Part shown: positions 41,113 through 50,429 of the stretch, piece by piece
Numbering within the stretch: the stretch's first letter is position 1
How the letters are laid out: each line of letters opens with the position of its first letter
Assembly: GCF_016887565.1 (NCBI RefSeq)
Contig: NZ_CP069396.1
Span: 9,034,001-9,098,000, forward strand
Reading direction: 5' to 3'
Origin: Archangium violaceum
GTDB taxonomy: Bacteria > Myxococcota > Myxococcia > Myxococcales > Myxococcaceae
DNA: 64,000 nt
Position numbers and translations under genes: made by a program
Notes under the pieces: model-generated
The model's input: only the letters and a program-made list of their open reading frames with translations
Databases searched by the model: none
Told to the model about the DNA's origin: nothing

Positions 41113-41440
41113 GGAGCGAACGGTTCCCTGGACGCCACACCCGCTCAGGGGCACGGCGCCTCGATTCAGGAAAAGACGAGGCTCCACGCCGGCGCTCGTG
41201 CGCCGGAGTCAGCGGATCCGTTCACCGAGGAGACGGTACGCGCCGGTCACCCGTGCGAGGGCGTGGAGAGACCCGAGACACCGTTTTGCACACGTCCCAT
41301 GGCACACCTCCCGCCGCGCAAGGTTCCACCGCGCGAGCCGCGAACGCCCAAAATGGGCACACGCACTCCATGTGTCAATCCCCGGTCGCCGCCCCCCAGG
41401 AACGATTGCCCCCGGACCCGGCGGACAGCAGGATGCCGAC
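41113..41440. other. 328-base gap between divergent rbfA-like and msrB genes
   Basis: No coding frame. It should hold two divergent promoters. A GG-N10-GC pattern around 41302-41316 (GGCACACCTCCCGC) weakly recalls a sigma-54 site but lacks the usual TTGC at -12. No tRNA, riboswitch or terminator seen. Confidence 0.3.
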
Positions 41441-41863
41441 ATGGTCGAAAAACTGGTCCTCAGTGACGAGGAATGGCGGAAGCGTCTGACACCCGAGGAG
41501 TACCAGGTGCTGCGCGGTCATGGCACCGAGCGCGCCTGGACCGGCTGCTTCGTCGCAACCAAGGAGGCCGGCACCTACGTGTGCGCCGGCTGCGGCAACC
41601 CCCTCTTCAAGTCCGGCGAGAAGTTCGAGTCCGGCACCGGCTGGCCCTCCTTCACCCGGCCCGTCCAGCCGGACGCGGTGACGGAGTACCAGGATCGCTC
41701 GCACGGGATGCTCCGCACCGAGGTGCGCTGCGGCCGCTGCGATGGCCACCTGGGACACGTCTTCCCCGATGGCCCTCCCCCCACGGGGCTGCGCTACTGC
41801 ATGAACTCCGTGGCGATGAAGCACGTCCTGGAAGGTCAGCCCTTCCAGCTCGTCACCAAGTGA
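41441..41863 (+). CDS. msrB: peptide-methionine (R)-S-oxide reductase
   Basis: 140 residues, AGGATG before the start. Zinc site from two CxxC pairs (Cys48/51 and Cys97/100), substrate region GTGWPSF, and catalytic Cys120 in RYCMNSVAM. It reduces methionine-R-sulfoxide in proteins with thioredoxin. It lies convergent with the DNA methyltransferase gene; a short inverted repeat (GAGCCC/GGGCTC) between them may act as a shared terminator. Confidence 0.95.
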
Positions 41864-43388: not shown

Positions 43389-44510
43389 CTAATGAGATGC
43401 GGAACCGGGCGGTTCGATTCGCTCCACCCGCTTCTTCAGCTCGGCATCATCCGTGACATCGCTCCCCAGCTGGATGTACGTGAGGCGGTGGGTGCGCTTG
43501 ACCCCTTGTGTGCCCCCCCCCGCCTGCGCCGCCAGCGCCTTGCGCCGGGACTCGAAGTTGGTCACGGCCTCCTGGAGCGCGTTCCGGGCCGCCTCGTCCT
43601 TCATGGACGCCAGGCGCTTCTTCGCCTGCTGGATGTTGTCGTCGAGGATCTTCAGGTTTTCCCGGGCGCGATCCGCCTCGGTGAGGTCCACGAAGGGCCC
43701 CTTCCCCCCATCCAGCGAGAGCTCCAGGCGGGCGAGCTGCCGGCCCCGCTCCCCCGGAGCCACCAGGGTGGCGTAGTCGTTGCGCTGCGCCACGCCCTGG
43801 CTCCGCCCCTCGTGCGACTGCACGATGAAGTCCATGGCATCGCCCCCCTGGGTGGAGAGCGTCACGGCATCCATGTAGGGCACCGCGGCGAGCACCACCA
43901 CCACGTCCACCTTCTCCTTCTCCCGGAGACGGCGCGACTCGGCGATGGCCGCCGGCACCGGGGGCCTGCCCACCACGCCCTTCTGCGTGGCCACCGGGCC
44001 CTCGGGGGAGATGCCCACCAGGCCCACCTTCACGCCGTTCACCGTCTGCACGGTGGACGCCGGGAAGAGCGGCTTGCCGTTCGCGTCCACCAGGTTGGCG
44101 GACAGCAGCTTCATCTTCGCGTCCGGTCCCTGGGTGGCCTTCACGAGGAAGTCCGTCCCGAGCGTCAGGTCGCGCAGGCCCACGGCCATGGCCGCGGTGC
44201 CCAATGCGTTCATCTGCTCGAGCAGGAGCTGTGCACGTGCCTTCTCCGTCGGATCTCCGCCGGGGTTCGAGGACTTGAAGAGCGCATTGCCCGCATCCAG
44301 CAACAGCACCGGCCCCTTCGCGCGCTCCCGCGTGAGGGCCGTCTTTCGTCTGGCCAGACCGCCAGACGGGTTGTGGCGTCAACCACAGGGGGCGATCTCG
44401 CCCCCGTTGTCTCCGGTGAACAGGAGCACCACCTGCTTGGGCGCCGCGCCCGCCACCAGGGGCGTCAGCAGCAGCGCGAGCAGGGAGAGCAGCGTCAGAC
44501 GCAGTCTCAT
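43389..44510 (-). CDS. predicted selenoprotein, phosphoesterase/5'-nucleotidase-like
   Basis: 373 residues if UGA at 44381-44379 is read as selenocysteine (residue 44). The first 22 residues are a signal peptide, then [30 protein letters not shown]. After the UGA the same frame stays open to 43389 with the family pattern ([36 protein letters not shown]). Related exported phosphoesterase-like proteins have CGC...GGLARR here, so Sec replaces Cys. A hairpin just downstream fits a bacterial SECIS. A coiled-coil region follows about residue 270. It overlaps the upstream CpoB-like gene by ATGA. Ordinary callers would give a secreted 43-residue peptide plus a headless protein. Confidence 0.8.
44347..44368 (-). 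promoter_or_regulatory. SECIS-like hairpin
   Basis: Read on the minus strand: CGTCTGGC, loop GGTCTG, GCCAGACG. Eight perfect pairs closing a six-base loop. The hairpin starts ten bases after the UGA, which puts the loop G/U about 18 bases downstream. Bacterial SECIS elements bind SelB through a loop with GGUCU in E. coli fdhF, at a similar distance. The hairpin lies inside the coding frame (residues PSGGLARR). Confidence 0.8.
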
Positions 44511-45358
44511 TTCTTGGTTCCCTTCTTCTTCGCCTTGTCCAGCTCCGCCAGCCGGCTCTTCGCCGTCTTCGCCGCTTCCGACTTCGGATAGGCCTTCACC
44601 AGCTCCTCCAACGCCAGCCGCGACTCCTCCTGCATCTTCAGCTTCTTGAAGCAGTCCGAGGAGCGCAGGTACGCGTCCGGCGTGGGCTCCGCCTTCGGGT
44701 ACTCCTGCAGCAGCTTGCCGTACTCGGGCAGGGCCTCGCGGCACTTGTCCTCGGCGAAGTACGTCTCGCCCAGCCCGTAGTGGGCCTCGGCCGCCAGCGC
44801 GTCCTTCGGCCACTTCTTGAGGAACTCCGTGTACAGCTGCCGGGCCACCGCCGTGTCCCCCGCCTTGGCCTTCTCCTGCGCCAGCGCGAGGAACTCCTTC
44901 TTGTCCGCGGGCCGCTTCAGCTCCTCGGCCTTCTTCCGGGCCTCGGCCTCCTTGAGGGCCGCCTCGCCCTTGAGGGCCAGCAGCTTGCTCTCCGTCTCCT
45001 CGTTCGTCTTCGCGAGCGCCGCCTCCAGCTCGCCAATCTTGTAGAGGTACGTCTCCACCTGGCCGCGCAGCTGCGCCAGATCCTCCACCGTCTTCTGCAG
45101 CTGGACGCTGATGTCCGCGCCCGTGCGGCGCGACGCCGTGTCCAGGCTCTGCAGGGCCTTGGTGACCTCGGCGACCTTCTCGTCGATGCGCGGCAGCGTG
45201 GCATCGAGCTGCGCGCGCGTCTGCTTCAGCTCCGCCTGGAGCTGGGCCTGGGTGGCATCGATCTTCTCGAGACGGGCCTCCAGCGCGCGCCCACGGTCCG
45301 CGGGGTAGAAACAGCCGGAGATCGCGAGCGGGAGGGCGATCAGTGCAAGCCTTCGCAT
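44507..45358 (-). CDS. CpoB/YbgF-like lipoprotein with coiled coil and TPRs
   Basis: 283 residues. Signal peptide and lipobox ending I-S-G-C. Residues 25-125 form a long coiled coil (ALEARLEKIDATQAQLQAEL). Residues about 160-270 hold TPR repeats (AVARQLYTEFLKKWPKD, AEAHYGLGETYF), the layout of CpoB, which coordinates Tol-Pal with wall synthesis. The family member in E. coli is periplasmic rather than lipidated. First gene of a coupled pair with the predicted selenoprotein. No tol genes are adjacent. Confidence 0.85.
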   Translation of the reverse strand: MRRLALIALPLAISGCFYPADRGRALEARLEKIDATQAQLQAELKQTRAQLDATLPRIDEKVAEVTKALQSLDTASRRTGADISVQLQKTVEDLAQLRGQVETYLYKIGELEAALAKTNEETESKLLALKGEAALKEAEARKKAEELKRPADKKEFLALAQEKAKAGDTAVARQLYTEFLKKWPKDALAAEAHYGLGETYFAEDKCREALPEYGKLLQEYPKAEPTPDAYLRSSDCFKKLKMQEESRLALEELVKAYPKSEAAKTAKSRLAELDKAKKKGTKK

Positions 45359-45434: not shown

Positions 45435-46838
45435 TCAACGCGGCGGGGTGGAGGCGGCGCGCTCCAGCCGCTCGATGGCCCGCGCGCAGGCCACCTGGAG
45501 CCGGGCGTTGTTGAGGTAGAAGGGCGTGGCGCGAGCCCTCCCCTCCTCCAGCGAGCGCAGGGCCTTGCGGTACTCCGCGGCGGCCTCGGCCAGCGCGCCC
45601 CGCTGCTCCAGCACCATCCCCAGCAGGTAGCGCGCCGAGGCCAGGTCCGGATCCAACGTGAGGCAGCGCCGCAGCGTGTCCGCCGTCTGCGGGCTCACGT
45701 CGCTCGCCTCCGCGGCCCACTCCAGCACCTGGGCGAAGAGGGCCTCCGCCTCCGAGTGCGCACTGTCCGCCACGGGCGCCCCCAGCGCCGGGGGCCGCTC
45801 GGCGCCAATGGCCGGGAAGCGTCCCGAGTTGCGTGCCTCCGGGGCCCTGTCCACGGTGGCGGCCGGAGGCGTGCCCGCATCCGGGAACGGCCGCGTCCCC
45901 ACCGCCGGAAAGCCACTGCCGCTCGGCGTCCTCGGCGCCACGGGTGGCCGTGACCCCACCGCCGGAAAGCCACTGCCGCTCGGCGTCCTCGGCGCCACGG
46001 GCGGCACCGGGCTCGCGGCGGGCGCGGGCTCCAGCGCGCGGGCATAGAAGAAGGCCTGGTCACAGCGCACGATGCGCAGGCCCGGCGGGGTGCGCAGCAG
46101 CGGCTCGGTGGCGGAGAGCATCAACAGCCCCTCGGGCGCGAGCCGCTCGGACAGCAACCCCACCACCCGGTCGAAGGACTGCGTGGTGAAATAGATGAGG
46201 ACGTTGCGGCAGGCGATGAGATCGAACCCCTGCCCCTCCGCCGCCGTCGGGTACGGCGAGTCCATCAGGTTGTGACAGGCGAAGCTGGCCCGATCCTTCA
46301 GGTGGGCCACCAGCGTGAAGCGGCCCCCGCCCACCGGGACGAACCACCGGTCCCGCACCATGGGGTGCACCCGCTGGAGCTGCTCCGAGGTGAAGCACAG
46401 CTCCCGCGCCCGGGCGATCGCCGTCTCCGAGATGTCCGTGCCCAGCACCGTGCTGCCCGTGTCCGCCCCCATCTCGGCGAGCATCACCAGCAGCGTGGCC
46501 ACCTCCTCGCCCGTGGCGCAGCCGGCGCTCCAGAGGCGCAGGGGCCGGCGCCTGCGCGCCACCAGCGGCTCCAGCACGTGCGTGCGCAGCGCCGAGAGCT
46601 GGGACTCGTCCCGGAACAGGTCCGTCTTCTGGACCGTGATGGCGTCGATGAGCTCGGCCAGGTCCCCGGCGCCCGCGGGCGACTGCAGGAACAGCAGGTA
46701 CTGCGCGCTCTGTCCCCCCGGCCGCGCCGCCAGCTTCTCGTCGAGCCGGCGGCACTGCAGATCACTCAAGGCCATGCCCGTCCGCCGCGCCACCAGGGCG
46801 TGGACGGGACCGTAGCCAGGAGGAAACAGAGGGGGCAC
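45435..46838 (-). CDS. cheR: CheR-type methyltransferase with TPR tail
   Basis: 467 residues. CheR N-terminal helices, then a SAM domain: LWSAGCATGEE, LGTDISETAIARAR, DLIACRNVLIYF. It methylates glutamates on the MCPs encoded upstream. A Pro-rich linker contains a 19-residue unit twice (PPVAPRTPSGSGFPAVG...), followed by TPR-like helices at the C-terminus, as in TPR-CheR proteins that sort between receptor arrays. Last gene of the chemosensory operon. Confidence 0.9.
   Translation of the reverse strand: MPPLFPPGYGPVHALVARRTGMALSDLQCRRLDEKLAARPGGQSAQYLLFLQSPAGAGDLAELIDAITVQKTDLFRDESQLSALRTHVLEPLVARRRRPLRLWSAGCATGEEVATLLVMLAEMGADTGSTVLGTDISETAIARARELCFTSEQLQRVHPMVRDRWFVPVGGGRFTLVAHLKDRASFACHNLMDSPYPTAAEGQGFDLIACRNVLIYFTTQSFDRVVGLLSERLAPEGLLMLSATEPLLRTPPGLRIVRCDQAFFYARALEPAPAASPVPPVAPRTPSGSGFPAVGSRPPVAPRTPSGSGFPAVGTRPFPDAGTPPAATVDRAPEARNSGRFPAIGAERPPALGAPVADSAHSEAEALFAQVLEWAAEASDVSPQTADTLRRCLTLDPDLASARYLLGMVLEQRGALAEAAAEYRKALRSLEEGRARATPFYLNNARLQVACARAIERLERAASTPPR
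45901..46005 (-). repeat. 57-base tandem duplication inside cheR
   Basis: Two copies with a 57-base period and only one mismatch in the first 48 bases (unit core GCCGGAAAGCCACTGCCG). In protein this is a 19-residue Pro/Gly/Ser unit in the linker between methyltransferase and TPR domains. Near-identity at the DNA level indicates a recent slip or selection for linker length. Confidence 0.85.
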
Positions 46839-46844
46839 CGGGTG

Positions 46845-47906
46845 TCAGCGCCCGACGGCGAGGGACTCACCCCGGGCCAGCCGCACCAGCGCGCCCGCGA
46901 TGTCGTCGCCGTGGATGATGTGGTCCACCGCCTTGCGCGCCACCGCCGTCCCCGGCATTCCGAACACCACGCAGGACTCCTCGTTCTGGGCCACCGTCAC
47001 GCCTCCGGCCTGCTTGATGGCCACCATGCCGTCCGCGCCGTCCTCACCCATGCCGGTGAGGATGAGCCCCATCGTGCGCCGCCCGTACGCCTTGGCCGCG
47101 CTCTCCAGCAGCACCGTCCCCGACGGCATGTGCCCGTCGCGCTCCACGCCCGGCTTGAGCGCCACCCGTCCCCGGAAGGGAATCACCAGGTGCTGCCCCG
47201 GCGGGGCGATCAGCACGTTGCCCGGCAGCAGCTGCTCGCCGTCCTGCGCCAGCCGCACCTTCAGCTTCGACGAGTTGGCCAGCCAGCCCGCCAGCGACTC
47301 GGAGAAGGCCGCGTTGATGTGCTGCACGATGACGATGGGCGTGGGGAAGTCCGCCGGCAGCTCCGACAGCATCCGGAAGAGCACCTGCGGGCCTCCCGTG
47401 GAGCTGGCCACCGCCAGCACCCCGTATGGCATCCCCATCACCGGGGCCGGTGTCGGCCCGGCGGTGCCCGGCAGCGGCGGCCGCCGCTTGCTGTGGATGT
47501 GCCGGATGACCCGCACCGAGGACAGCAGCTTCACCTCGCGCGACAGGTTCCACGCATCCGTCCCCGCATCGATGGCGGGCTTTATCTGCAGCGCCAGCGC
47601 GCCCAGCTCCAGCGCCCGGCACGTCAGCTCCGGCGCCTGATGCCGCGGATCCGCCGTCAGCATGAGGATGGGCGTGGGCACCTCCGCCATGATGTGCTCC
47701 ACGGCCGTGAGCCCGTCCATCACCGGCATCTCCACGTCCATGGTGATGACCTGCGGGCGCAGCTCGCGGGCGGCGTCGAGGGCCTCCTTCCCGTTGTTCG
47801 CGGTCCCGACGACCTCCAGATCTGAATCCCTGCTCAGTGCTTCACAGATCAGCTGTCGGCAGATGTGCGAGTCGTCGACGACCAGCACCGACACTTTCTT
47901 GCCCAT
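46845..47906 (-). CDS. cheB: CheB protein-glutamate methylesterase
   Basis: 353 residues from [13 protein letters not shown]. Receiver domain (Asp-Asp in VVDDS, phospho-Asp in [13 protein letters not shown]), linker, then the catalytic domain with Ser in VASSTGGPQ, His in QHINAAF and Asp in [10 protein letters not shown]. It removes methyl groups from MCPs when phosphorylated by CheA. It lies six bases before cheR and 69 bases after cheA. Confidence 0.95.
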
Positions 47907-47975
47907 GTGGCTTCCATACCCCGTGCGCGTCCCCCGGAGTATACCCAATGTGGCCACGTGTCCTTCAGCCGCCCG

Positions 47976-50429
47976 TCAGCCCAGGAGCCGGCCCACCACG
48001 TCCACCAGATCCTGACGCACCAGGTCACCCTTGGTGATGTAGCCGTCCGCACCGGCGGACAACCCACGCTGCCGGTCCTCCTCTCCTCCACGGGTGGTGA
48101 GGATGACCACCGGGAGGACCTTGTGCGTCGGATGCTCCTTGAGCCGGCGGGTCAGCTCCAACCCGTCCACCCGGGGCATCTCCAGGTCGGTGCAGACCAG
48201 ATCGACCTTCGTGTTCCCCAGCATGTCCAGGGCCTCCATGCCATCGGTGGCCATGACGACGTCGTACCCCACGGCCTCCAGCAGCGAGGCGATGAGCTCC
48301 CGGGTGAGGGGGGAGTCGTCCACCACGAGGATGCGGCGGCGGGGAGGAGGCGGAGGGCGGGGCGTGGCGGCGCGCGGGACCCGGAGGCTCGCGGCCCCCT
48401 GGGCGCTGACGATCAGGTGGGCGGCCGACAGCACCATGGCGAGCCGGCCGTCCGCCAGGGTGGTGGCGCCGGTGAGGTGCGGAAAGCGCGCCAGCAACCC
48501 CTTCAGCGGCAGGATGGCCTGGAGGCTCTCCTCCAACACCCGGTCCACCGCCAGCGCGGCCACGGCTCCCTGGCTGCGCACCACCAGCACCAGCGCCCCT
48601 TCGCCCGGCACCTGCTCCGGACACAGCCCGAGCAGGGCCCCCAGGGACGCGAAGGGCATGGGCTGCCCATCCACCTCCAGCACCGCCCGCCCGGCCACCT
48701 CGCGGATCTGCGAGGCCTCCACCTTCATGGCCCGCGAGACGTGCACGGCACTCAGGCAGAGCGTCTCCTCGGCCACCTTCACGAAGAGCAGCGGGGCCAC
48801 CGTGAGGGACACCGGCACCCGCAGCTCGAAGCGCGTGCCCCGGCCCGGCGTGGACTCCACCAGCACGTCCCCGCCCAGGGCCCTCAGGGAGCTGCGCACC
48901 GCGTCCAGCCCCACGCCGCGCCCGGAGATGTCCGTGGCCACCTCGCGCGAGGTGAAGCCGGAGAGGAAGATGAGCTCGCGCGCGCCCTGGTCCGACAGCG
49001 CCGCCGCAGAGGACTCGTCCAGGAAGCCCTTGCGCACCGCGGCCCGGCGCAGCAGCGCGGGCTCCAGCCCCACCCCGTCGTCCTCCACCCGGAGCACCAG
49101 CCGGTTGCCGTCGCGCGCGGCGCTCAGCGTCAGCCGCCCGCGCGGGTGCTTGCCCGAGGCCACCCGGTCCACGCGCGACTCCAGCCCATGGTCCAGCGCG
49201 TTGCGCACCAGGTGCAGCAACGGATCCCTCAGCGCCTCCACCACCGCCCGGTCGGCGCGGGTGTCCTCGCCGTCCACCACCAGCTCCACTTCCTTGCCCA
49301 GCTCGCGCGCCAGGTCCCGCACCATGCGCGGATAGGGCTCGAAGAGGACGGAGAGCGGCAGCATGCGCAGGCGCTGCACCTCGTCGGACACGTAGCCCAG
49401 GTCGCGCAGCTCCTCGTTGGCCAGCAGCTTCGCCTCGCGGTGCAGGGTGGCGGCCAGCTCCTTCGCCTTGCCGAGCCGCTCCGCCAGTGCACCCGCCGCC
49501 GGTCCCAGGTCCTCCGCGGCGCGCGCCAGCAGGCTCAGCTCCCGGGCCAGCTCCAGGCGCCGGGCCGTGGCCAGCTCGCGCCGGCGCGACACCTGCGTGA
49601 GGTTGGTCACCGCGCTCGTCAGCAGGTCCAGGCTCGCCACGCCGATGCGCACCGAGCCGTCCGCGCGATCTCCCGAGCGCAGCCCCGGGACGGACGCCGT
49701 CCGGGGCGGCGACTCGGGCGAGGCCGGGGGCATCCGTCCGATGGTGGCCGCGACCGTCGCCGAGGACTGCGCGCGCGGAGGCTCCACCGCCACCGTCCGG
49801 CCCACCATGGGCGAGCGGGGCGCGGCGACGGGTGACGGCAGGGGCGGCGGCGTCGGCTGCCGGGACACCAACGAGGGAGCCAGCACGCTCAGCGGCGCCG
49901 AGCCCCACGCGGGGGTGACCTCCTCCCGGTCATCCCGCTGGGGCTCCCTGGCGTCCCGGGAGGTGTCCCGGGTCTCCTTGCGCGCGGGCGGGGTGGCCTG
50001 CGCCGGGCCCTGCGTGTCCGGCTCTCCGCCCGTGCCGACCCCCTCCGCCCGGATGCACTCGCGCAGCCAGCGCACCAGCTTGTCCACCGCGGGGGGTTCC
50101 TGCTGCGGCTCGGGCGCCGCTCCGGCCAGCGCCAGCGCCAGCACCGCATCCGCGGCATGGAGGAGCGCGTCGATGGAGCCGGCCGACAGCGCATGCTCGG
50201 CGCGCTCCGTGGAGCGCACCAGCTCCTCCATCTCGTGGACGACGGCGTTGATGTCGTCGAAGCCCATCATCCGGGCCTCGCCCTTGAGGCCGTGCAGCTC
50301 GCGCAGCACGGTGCGGCCAGCCTCCAGGTTGGCGCCGGACTCCAGCTCCATGACGCGGCGGTTGATGCGCTCCAGACGCACCCCCACCAGCTCGCGGAAC
50401 TGCTTGAGCAGCTTCTCCCGCGCGCTCAC
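47976..50429 (-). CDS. cheA: hybrid CheA histidine kinase with C-terminal receiver
   Basis: 817 residues. Hpt with His46 (LRELHGLKGEA), a Pro-rich linker of about 150 residues with no clear P2, dimerisation helices, and HATPase (HLVRNALDHG, VEDDGVGL, GRGVGLDAVR). Then a CheW-like domain and a receiver (VVDDSPLTRELI, phospho-Asp in LVCTDLEMP). The fused receiver resembles FrzE. No separate CheY is in the window, so the fused receiver may be the output or a phosphate sink. ATGA coupling to the upstream MCP. Confidence 0.93.
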   Translation of the reverse strand: MSAREKLLKQFRELVGVRLERINRRVMELESGANLEAGRTVLRELHGLKGEARMMGFDDINAVVHEMEELVRSTERAEHALSAGSIDALLHAADAVLALALAGAAPEPQQEPPAVDKLVRWLRECIRAEGVGTGGEPDTQGPAQATPPARKETRDTSRDAREPQRDDREEVTPAWGSAPLSVLAPSLVSRQPTPPPLPSPVAAPRSPMVGRTVAVEPPRAQSSATVAATIGRMPPASPESPPRTASVPGLRSGDRADGSVRIGVASLDLLTSAVTNLTQVSRRRELATARRLELARELSLLARAAEDLGPAAGALAERLGKAKELAATLHREAKLLANEELRDLGYVSDEVQRLRMLPLSVLFEPYPRMVRDLARELGKEVELVVDGEDTRADRAVVEALRDPLLHLVRNALDHGLESRVDRVASGKHPRGRLTLSAARDGNRLVLRVEDDGVGLEPALLRRAAVRKGFLDESSAAALSDQGARELIFLSGFTSREVATDISGRGVGLDAVRSSLRALGGDVLVESTPGRGTRFELRVPVSLTVAPLLFVKVAEETLCLSAVHVSRAMKVEASQIREVAGRAVLEVDGQPMPFASLGALLGLCPEQVPGEGALVLVVRSQGAVAALAVDRVLEESLQAILPLKGLLARFPHLTGATTLADGRLAMVLSAAHLIVSAQGAASLRVPRAATPRPPPPPRRRILVVDDSPLTRELIASLLEAVGYDVVMATDGMEALDMLGNTKVDLVCTDLEMPRVDGLELTRRLKEHPTHKVLPVVILTTRGGEEDRQRGLSAGADGYITKGDLVRQDLVDVVGRLLG

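Follow-up and report, generated by a model that had tools for sequence, protein, structure and literature searches.

A predicted UshA-like selenoprotein encoded by Archangium violaceum and its relatives among the myxobacteria

Does a UGA codon within a conserved reading frame of Archangium violaceum end translation, or is it decoded as selenocysteine (Sec)? The question is raised by a minus-strand gene at positions 43389..44510 of a 64,000-nucleotide stretch of the genome of this myxobacterium (contig NZ_CP069396.1, positions 9,034,001 to 9,098,000; hereafter the window), which a sequence-only reading had proposed to be an unannotated selenoprotein gene. The predicted protein is related to the 5′-nucleotidase UshA, and the UGA codon is followed by a hairpin that resembles a bacterial Sec insertion sequence (bSECIS). 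On comparative grounds and from the gene content of the genome, the insertion of Sec at residue 44 is nearly certain. The explanation as a whole, wherein a genuine selenoprotein is also assigned a redox role, is in our judgment highly probable.

The UGA codon, its hairpin, and the decoding machinery

Read from 44510 to 43389, the frame is interrupted only by one TGA, at codon 44 (44379..44381), has no frameshifts, and encodes 373 residues with homology that extends full-length on both sides of the TGA. The frame had been described in the same way from the letters alone. Its UGA codon forms the last position of a Cys42-Gly43-Sec44 (CxU) motif (44379..44387), and a hydrophobic N-terminal segment (44445..44510), judged by eye from the translation, is a probable signal peptide. 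The gene product is thus probably exported.

Ten bases 3′ of the TGA begins a hairpin with a perfect 8-bp stem and a GGUCUG loop (44347..44368, minus strand), whose letters are CGTCTGGC-GGTCTG-GCCAGACG, with stem arms at 44368-44361 and 44354-44347 and the loop at 44360-44355. Distance, stem, and loop are all as first reported, and RNAfold assigns an energy of -20.0 kcal/mol to a 48-nt stretch containing the hairpin. The bSECIS model, as outlined in the relevant part of a 2026 review, specifies an apical loop of 3-9 nt, an upper stem of 4-16 bp, G at the first two loop positions, and a loop located 16-37 nt from the UGA (PMC13188914). The corresponding values here are a 6-nt loop beginning with GG, 8 bp, and 18 nt from UGA to loop. 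The bSECIS of formate dehydrogenase likewise carries GGUCU in its apical loop, with G at the first two positions and the loop 18 nt 3′ of the UGA. Indeed, the fdhA gene of the same genome is identical to the UshA-like gene in loop letters and spacing, with GGTCT beginning at index 21 in both genes, whereas its stem sequence differs because the stem of the UshA-like gene encodes PSGGLARR. We take the GGUCU loop to match the Escherichia coli type.

When the segment was shuffled among synonymous codons, a stem of at least 8 bp formed somewhere in 3.9% of draws, and 0.062% had GGTCT enclosed by an 8-bp stem at the position of the hairpin. The hairpin alone is therefore not overwhelming evidence, and a comparison with relatives was needed; this doubt is removed by the 107 relatives described below, of which 87 carry TGA and 20 carry a cysteine codon. 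Within the window, Rfam at gathering thresholds gave no matches and ARAGORN found no tRNA. A covariance model of the SECIS (R1), built from a set that includes this gene, was used to scan the whole genome, with 150 of 12752 first-look candidates scored. This gene was the sole strong match (E 1.2e-18), the next (E 0.05) lying between two open reading frames (ORFs), upstream of a ClpX-like one. The UGA-containing genes selD and fdhA are absent among the 17 matches of R1, and the model is therefore specific to this gene and unusable for counting selenoproteins.

The sequence-only reading had made its proposal depend on genes for Sec decoding elsewhere in the genome, and all of them are present. 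The genome (G000) consists of one 13.2-Mb contig and encodes a tRNA-Sec with anticodon UCA (73.2 bits), SelA (575 bits, cut-off 267.9), SelB (328 bits, cut-off 242) with winged-helix domains PF09106 and PF09107, and SelD (379 bits, cut-off 125), each of the four scoring above its curated cut-off. In the proposed mechanism, SelB and Sec-tRNA(UCA) would bind the GGUCU-loop hairpin just 3′ of the UGA, such that Sec would be inserted at residue 44 of the probably exported protein.

The notion that the UshA-like gene is the sole client of this machinery was dropped, as both fdhA and selD also have an in-frame UGA. The selD gene (L152:1402-2451; G000:C1:9518168-9519094) carries its TGA in the context HCAG-U-AAK, and SelD is therefore probably a selenoprotein too. 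The formate-dehydrogenase-like gene fdhA (L185) has a TGA at G000:C1:439538-439540 in the context NQARI-Sec-HSSTVPGLG. Thus, the genome is predicted to encode at least three Sec proteins, which are SelD, FdhA, and the UshA-like protein. A second tRNA-Sec match (59.5 bits), at first regarded as a second gene, was reinterpreted as a copy of the 3′ part of the tRNA-Sec gene. This repeat, still called tRNA-Sec, lies ~22 kb from the gene and adjoins a tyrosine-integrase ORF (PF00589) (gene and repeat at L001:1501-1595 and L002:1501-1593; G000:C1:5204985-5205079 and 5182915-5183007). The arrangement suggests an integrated element in selC, with the tRNA-Sec gene as its integration site. A plasmid search gave no matches.

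Selenocysteine and cysteine among relatives

All six genomes of the genus contain the gene with exactly one TGA. Of 145 genomes of the order, each with at most 13 candidates scored, 93 gave a match at E <= 1e-30. A tblastn match spans residue 44 at 120 loci, and 107 of these were kept because they score >100 bits and have TGA, TGC, or TGT at this codon. Among the 107, the codon is TGA in 87 and TGC or TGT in 20, with no other. The 13 dropped loci comprise L142, whose gene is already counted as L070, and 12 weak matches of <100 bits in distant proteins, of which five have Cys and seven another residue or a gap. The column is thus UGA or Cys in all relatives kept, rather than random. The 87 UGA genes come from 87 genomes, including 81 of the 96 genomes of the family to which the window belongs. 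A second set, drawn from named genomes, overlaps the 107 and is not added to them; of its 56 loci, 55 cover the site, 46 with TGA and nine with TGC. Of the 46 UGA loci, 45 have GGTCT in the same position, and the remaining one ends before the hairpin. A strain of Myxococcus xanthus (L212) has both the UGA codon and the hairpin.

Because UGA and Cys genes encode the same GGLARR peptide, selection on the SECIS can be told apart from coding constraint unusually clearly. GGTCT follows the site in 87/87 UGA genes versus 1/20 Cys genes, and GGT encodes the second Gly of GGLARR in 87/87 versus 0/20. The next Arg codon is AGA or AGG in 81/87 UGA genes and in 0/20 Cys genes; AGA accounts for only two of 260 Arg codons in seven coding sequences of the region. 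Where UGA genes have the same residue as the window's gene, they keep its codon in 579 of 649 cases (89.2%) at codons 48-55 versus 10502 of 16392 (64.1%) elsewhere in the gene, and the corresponding counts for Cys genes are 45 of 135 versus 2159 of 3533. Two more eight-codon stretches, near residues 222 and 288, are about equally codon-conserved, with fewer cases.

Pairing was evaluated for the 50 distinct UGA stretches among the 87 and for 19 of the 20 Cys stretches (L141, which has a gap, was left out). In the UGA stretches, 89.0% of cells are paired, compared with 85.6% in shuffled and 19.8-41.0% in slid alignments, and the covariation score is 0.089 versus 0.044 after shuffling. None of 500 shuffles was as high for pairing or for covariation. 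The Cys stretches are 66.4% paired, a value reached by 72 of 500 shuffles, which is no clear excess. Pairing is therefore conserved across UGA relatives, a property that we added to those of the published bSECIS model, and the hairpin whose conservation the sequence-only reading had wanted checked is retained where the gene has UGA and has mostly disappeared where it has Cys.

The presence of the decoding machinery follows a similar division. Matches were scored at E <= 1e-60 for SelA and E <= 1e-70 for SelB, and every genome with such a match is above the family cut-off. The count covers 87 + 5 genomes; G089, the remaining one of the 93 that gave a match, has no copy that covers the site. SelA and SelB are both found in 82 of 87 UGA genomes, one of them in four, and neither in one; of the five Cys-only genomes, one has both and four have neither (Fisher p = 2.2e-4, kinship ignored). 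In the Cys-only genomes G053, G091, and G144, the best tRNA-Sec matches are tRNA-Ser or tRNA-Leu. Two of these matches, barely above the cut-off (G091, 47.6 bits; G144, 51.6 bits), were rejected because ARAGORN calls them tRNA-Leu and tRNA-Ser, respectively.

One Cys genome, G076 (100% complete, 2 contigs), has no SelA and no SelB at these thresholds and no tRNA-Sec above cut-off, its best match (46.8 bits) being a tRNA-Ser according to ARAGORN. Its congeners G077, G078, and G079 have tRNA-Sec matches of 71.6-71.7 bits. The G076 orthologue has Cys at the Sec position in an otherwise identical local peptide, and compared with its nearest neighbor in the tree, G078 (SH-aLRT 88), it differs at five of eight hairpin codons and at 72 of 303 codons elsewhere. 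Two Sec species, G077 and G078, differ at none of eight hairpin codons and at 66 of 290 elsewhere. In a tree of 69 of the 105 full ORFs, which were named by hand, the Sec/Cys label changes at least eight times, six of these changes being forced by the branches starred in the tree, and the deepest branches are mostly Sec. As the root is a midpoint root, the direction of change is only inferred.

Several observations weigh against the assignment of Sec. Covariation in the stem is modest, with two pairs changed on both sides, a number reached by 203 of 500 shuffles, and the outer pair 15-34 is open in 22 of the 50 UGA stretches. Five UGA genomes, in assemblies of 50 to 1260 contigs that are 80-100% complete, lack a scored SelA, SelB, or both. 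No SelB was scored in G048, G087, and G134, and no SelA in G049. G087 (100% complete, ~200 contigs) has the UGA gene, SelA, and tRNA-Sec but no SelB at the threshold, and G124 (87% complete, ~900 contigs) has a UGA gene with neither SelA nor SelB and a tRNA-Ser as its best tRNA-Sec match. Conversely, G129 encodes Cys in spite of having SelA and SelB, and the top match to tRNA-Sec in that genome is a tRNA-Ser.

Programmed readthrough that inserts an ordinary amino acid, such as Trp carried by a near-cognate tRNA, would likewise keep a single UGA and could need a downstream stem. This explanation is very improbable, given that all 20 genes without the UGA have Cys instead, that the loop matches the fdhA loop of the same genome, and that the UGA form follows SelA and SelB. 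That the gene is a pseudogene or carries a nonsense mutation, such that only a 43-residue upstream piece or the 306-codon GTG ORF downstream (43389..44309, UGA missed) is translated, is hardly credible: public entries of close relatives do begin at the downstream start codon (303-306 aa), but 87 genomes share the TGA, together with homology to either side of it, a single inner stop, and a loop conserved at synonymous sites, and a product of the downstream ORF would have neither the hydrophobic N-terminus nor strand 1 nor the CxU motif, which is invariant. Insertion of Sec at residue 44, as the sequence-only reading had proposed, is instead supported jointly by the machinery, the UGA/Cys column, and the conservation of the hairpin.

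Family membership and a possible redox role

UshA-like selenoproteins with a CxU motif have been noted before. The 2008 Global Ocean Sampling survey includes them, in the portion that lists its families, as COG0737 UshA-like (PMC2398784), and the family appears again in the corresponding portion of a 2022 study (PMC9312934). The part of the 2026 review that treats these proteins gives two models, NF041198 (CxU) and NF049981 (CxxU) (PMC13188914). As a protein family, therefore, the find is not new in kind. The string “myxo” is absent from the main texts of PMC2398784, PMC9312934, PMC13188914, PMC5029168, and PMC12013277. Full-text literature searches that combined Myxococcus, myxobacteria, or Myxococcota with selenoprotein or selenocysteine listed nothing relevant; supplements were outside their scope, and prior notice is possible.

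Like members of NF041198 (UshA_like_PCGU), the protein has an UshA-like domain with PCGU or PCGC followed by GG, and in both cases Sec is aligned with Cys of homologues. It aligns over profile positions 10-374, has no counterpart to the C-terminal portion of this 519-position model, and scores 169.1 bits against a cut-off of 275. This cut-off is exceeded in five of 195 genomes of the phylum, by proteins with 3-4 CxxCH motifs. The domain of NF049981 (UshA_like_Sel_2, family 2) is related, but the protein scores 44.3 bits against a cut-off of 140 and has CxU where that family has CxxU. Two close public copies that were checked start after the UGA (P0001, 306 aa; P0040, 303 aa) and are named bifunctional UDP-sugar hydrolase/5′-nucleotidases, and close public copies lack the first ~67 residues. 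The mechanism and the broad family were thus already known; within that family, this is a short, haem-less variant that had gone unannotated and is found across many myxobacteria.

A longer UshA-like paralogue in the same genome (L020:376-1890) joins PCGC to a multihaem c554-type tail. It has a c554 domain and four CxxCH motifs, all in the C-terminal part, and at 240 bits it too falls below the NF041198 cut-off. Among other relatives examined, 14 of 18 have 3-4 CxxCH motifs. The NF041198 search also returned distant UshA-like genes elsewhere in the phylum, L167, L181, and L182 (G149, G193, and G151), each with one in-frame TGA and no CxxCH in the frames read; ECG-TGA and PCG-TGA motifs were seen in L181 and L182, and the TGA of L167 is unplaced. 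These are possible further haem-less UshA-like selenoproteins.

The likeness to phosphoesterases that had been remarked on from the sequence holds for the fold, not for the catalytic site, which is largely degenerate in this group. The protein has a metallophosphoesterase fold, aligns only to residues 28-355 of 1ho5, and has no C-terminal nucleotidase domain. The dinuclear metal ligands of UshA and 5′-nucleotidases are Asp, His, Asp, Asn, His, His, and His, and their positions were taken from an alignment. The set of aligned family sequences (A4) comprises 64 of the 105 full ORFs (67 non-redundant at 86% identity, with four left out and the G076 orthologue added). In 59 of its 64 sequences only one or two of the eight ligand positions are kept, such that most of the UshA ligand set is lost, and position 75 is Asn in 58. 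With UGA read as Cys, Cys42, Gly43, and residue 44 are invariant in 64/64. The protein thus differs from the UshA and CD73 5′-nucleotidases and from the SoxB thiosulfohydrolase, whose N-terminal metallophosphoesterase domain is its counterpart, in having no C-terminal nucleotidase domain, in the loss of most metal-ligand positions, and in its Cys-Gly-Sec motif.

From these features, the mature protein would be a metallophosphoesterase domain of the UshA/CD73/SoxB superfamily that has largely lost its metal site and retains an invariant Cys-Gly-Sec motif. We infer that it may act in the periplasm as a thiol/selenol redox protein that corresponds, without haem, to longer relatives in which the same domain is fused to a c554-type multihaem tail, and that it could exchange electrons with a partner via a Cys42-Sec44 selenenylsulfide. 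Such a redox role is reasonably likely. Some findings count against it, in that five divergent relatives among the 64 keep four or five of the eight ligand positions, SoxB and UshA have the same fold and are hydrolases, and some relatives outside the group (for example L020, L159, L169, and L181) keep Asp75, His209, and His233, so that PCGC/PCGU proteins have not all lost the metal site. Thus, the Sec protein could still be a metal-dependent phosphoesterase or a thiosulfohydrolase-like hydrolase of the UshA/SoxB type in which Sec would act as ligand or nucleophile. Hydrolase activity is unlikely, however, because the metal site is largely degenerate, and the C-terminal nucleotidase domain is also missing. 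It is likewise doubtful, and rather improbable, that Cys-Gly-Sec has a structural or delivery role, in which it coordinates a metal, a haem, or a cluster without redox turnover; the close spacing of Cys and Sec near a vestigial metal site and the haem motifs of relatives would fit this possibility, but Sec is rarely kept for pure structure.

Genomic neighborhood and implications

Directly upstream of the selenoprotein gene, and overlapping its start by ATGA, is a gene for a CpoB/YbgF-like tetratricopeptide repeat (TPR) protein (44507..45358, minus strand). Its match to the YbgF model (86.4 bits) is under the cut-off of 90.1, and we therefore call it only YbgF-like. All 28 long UGA loci have this conserved neighbor, as does the locus of the Cys orthologue in G076, and the seven other long Cys loci lack it. 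In short loci, the end of the TPR gene is seen in 52 of 57 with UGA and 3 of 12 with Cys. CheR, CheB, and CheA-type genes (window positions 45435-50429, minus strand) lie directly upstream of the TPR-selenoprotein pair. On the opposite strand, ~1.5 kb from the selenoprotein gene, an ORF at about 41440-41863 has a translation that by eye resembles the Cys form of methionine-R-sulfoxide reductase (MsrB).

There is perhaps an even chance that these genes represent a third, haem-less subfamily of UshA-like selenoproteins that is typical of myxobacteria, including M. xanthus. Its nucleotidase scaffold would have lost its metal chemistry and become a periplasmic selenol oxidoreductase, encoded by a gene that overlaps one for a CpoB/YbgF-like envelope protein. 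Exchanges between Sec and Cys would have occurred on several occasions, and at least the G076 lineage would combine the Cys form with decay of the SECIS and loss of the whole Sec-decoding system. Such a switch between close relatives offers a clean test of what selenium contributes to the protein.

Myxobacteria are aerobic predators. By our prediction, selenocysteine is in use throughout a large group of soil bacteria to which the genetic model M. xanthus belongs, and the uncharacterized UshA-like selenoproteins would thereby gain a tractable host.
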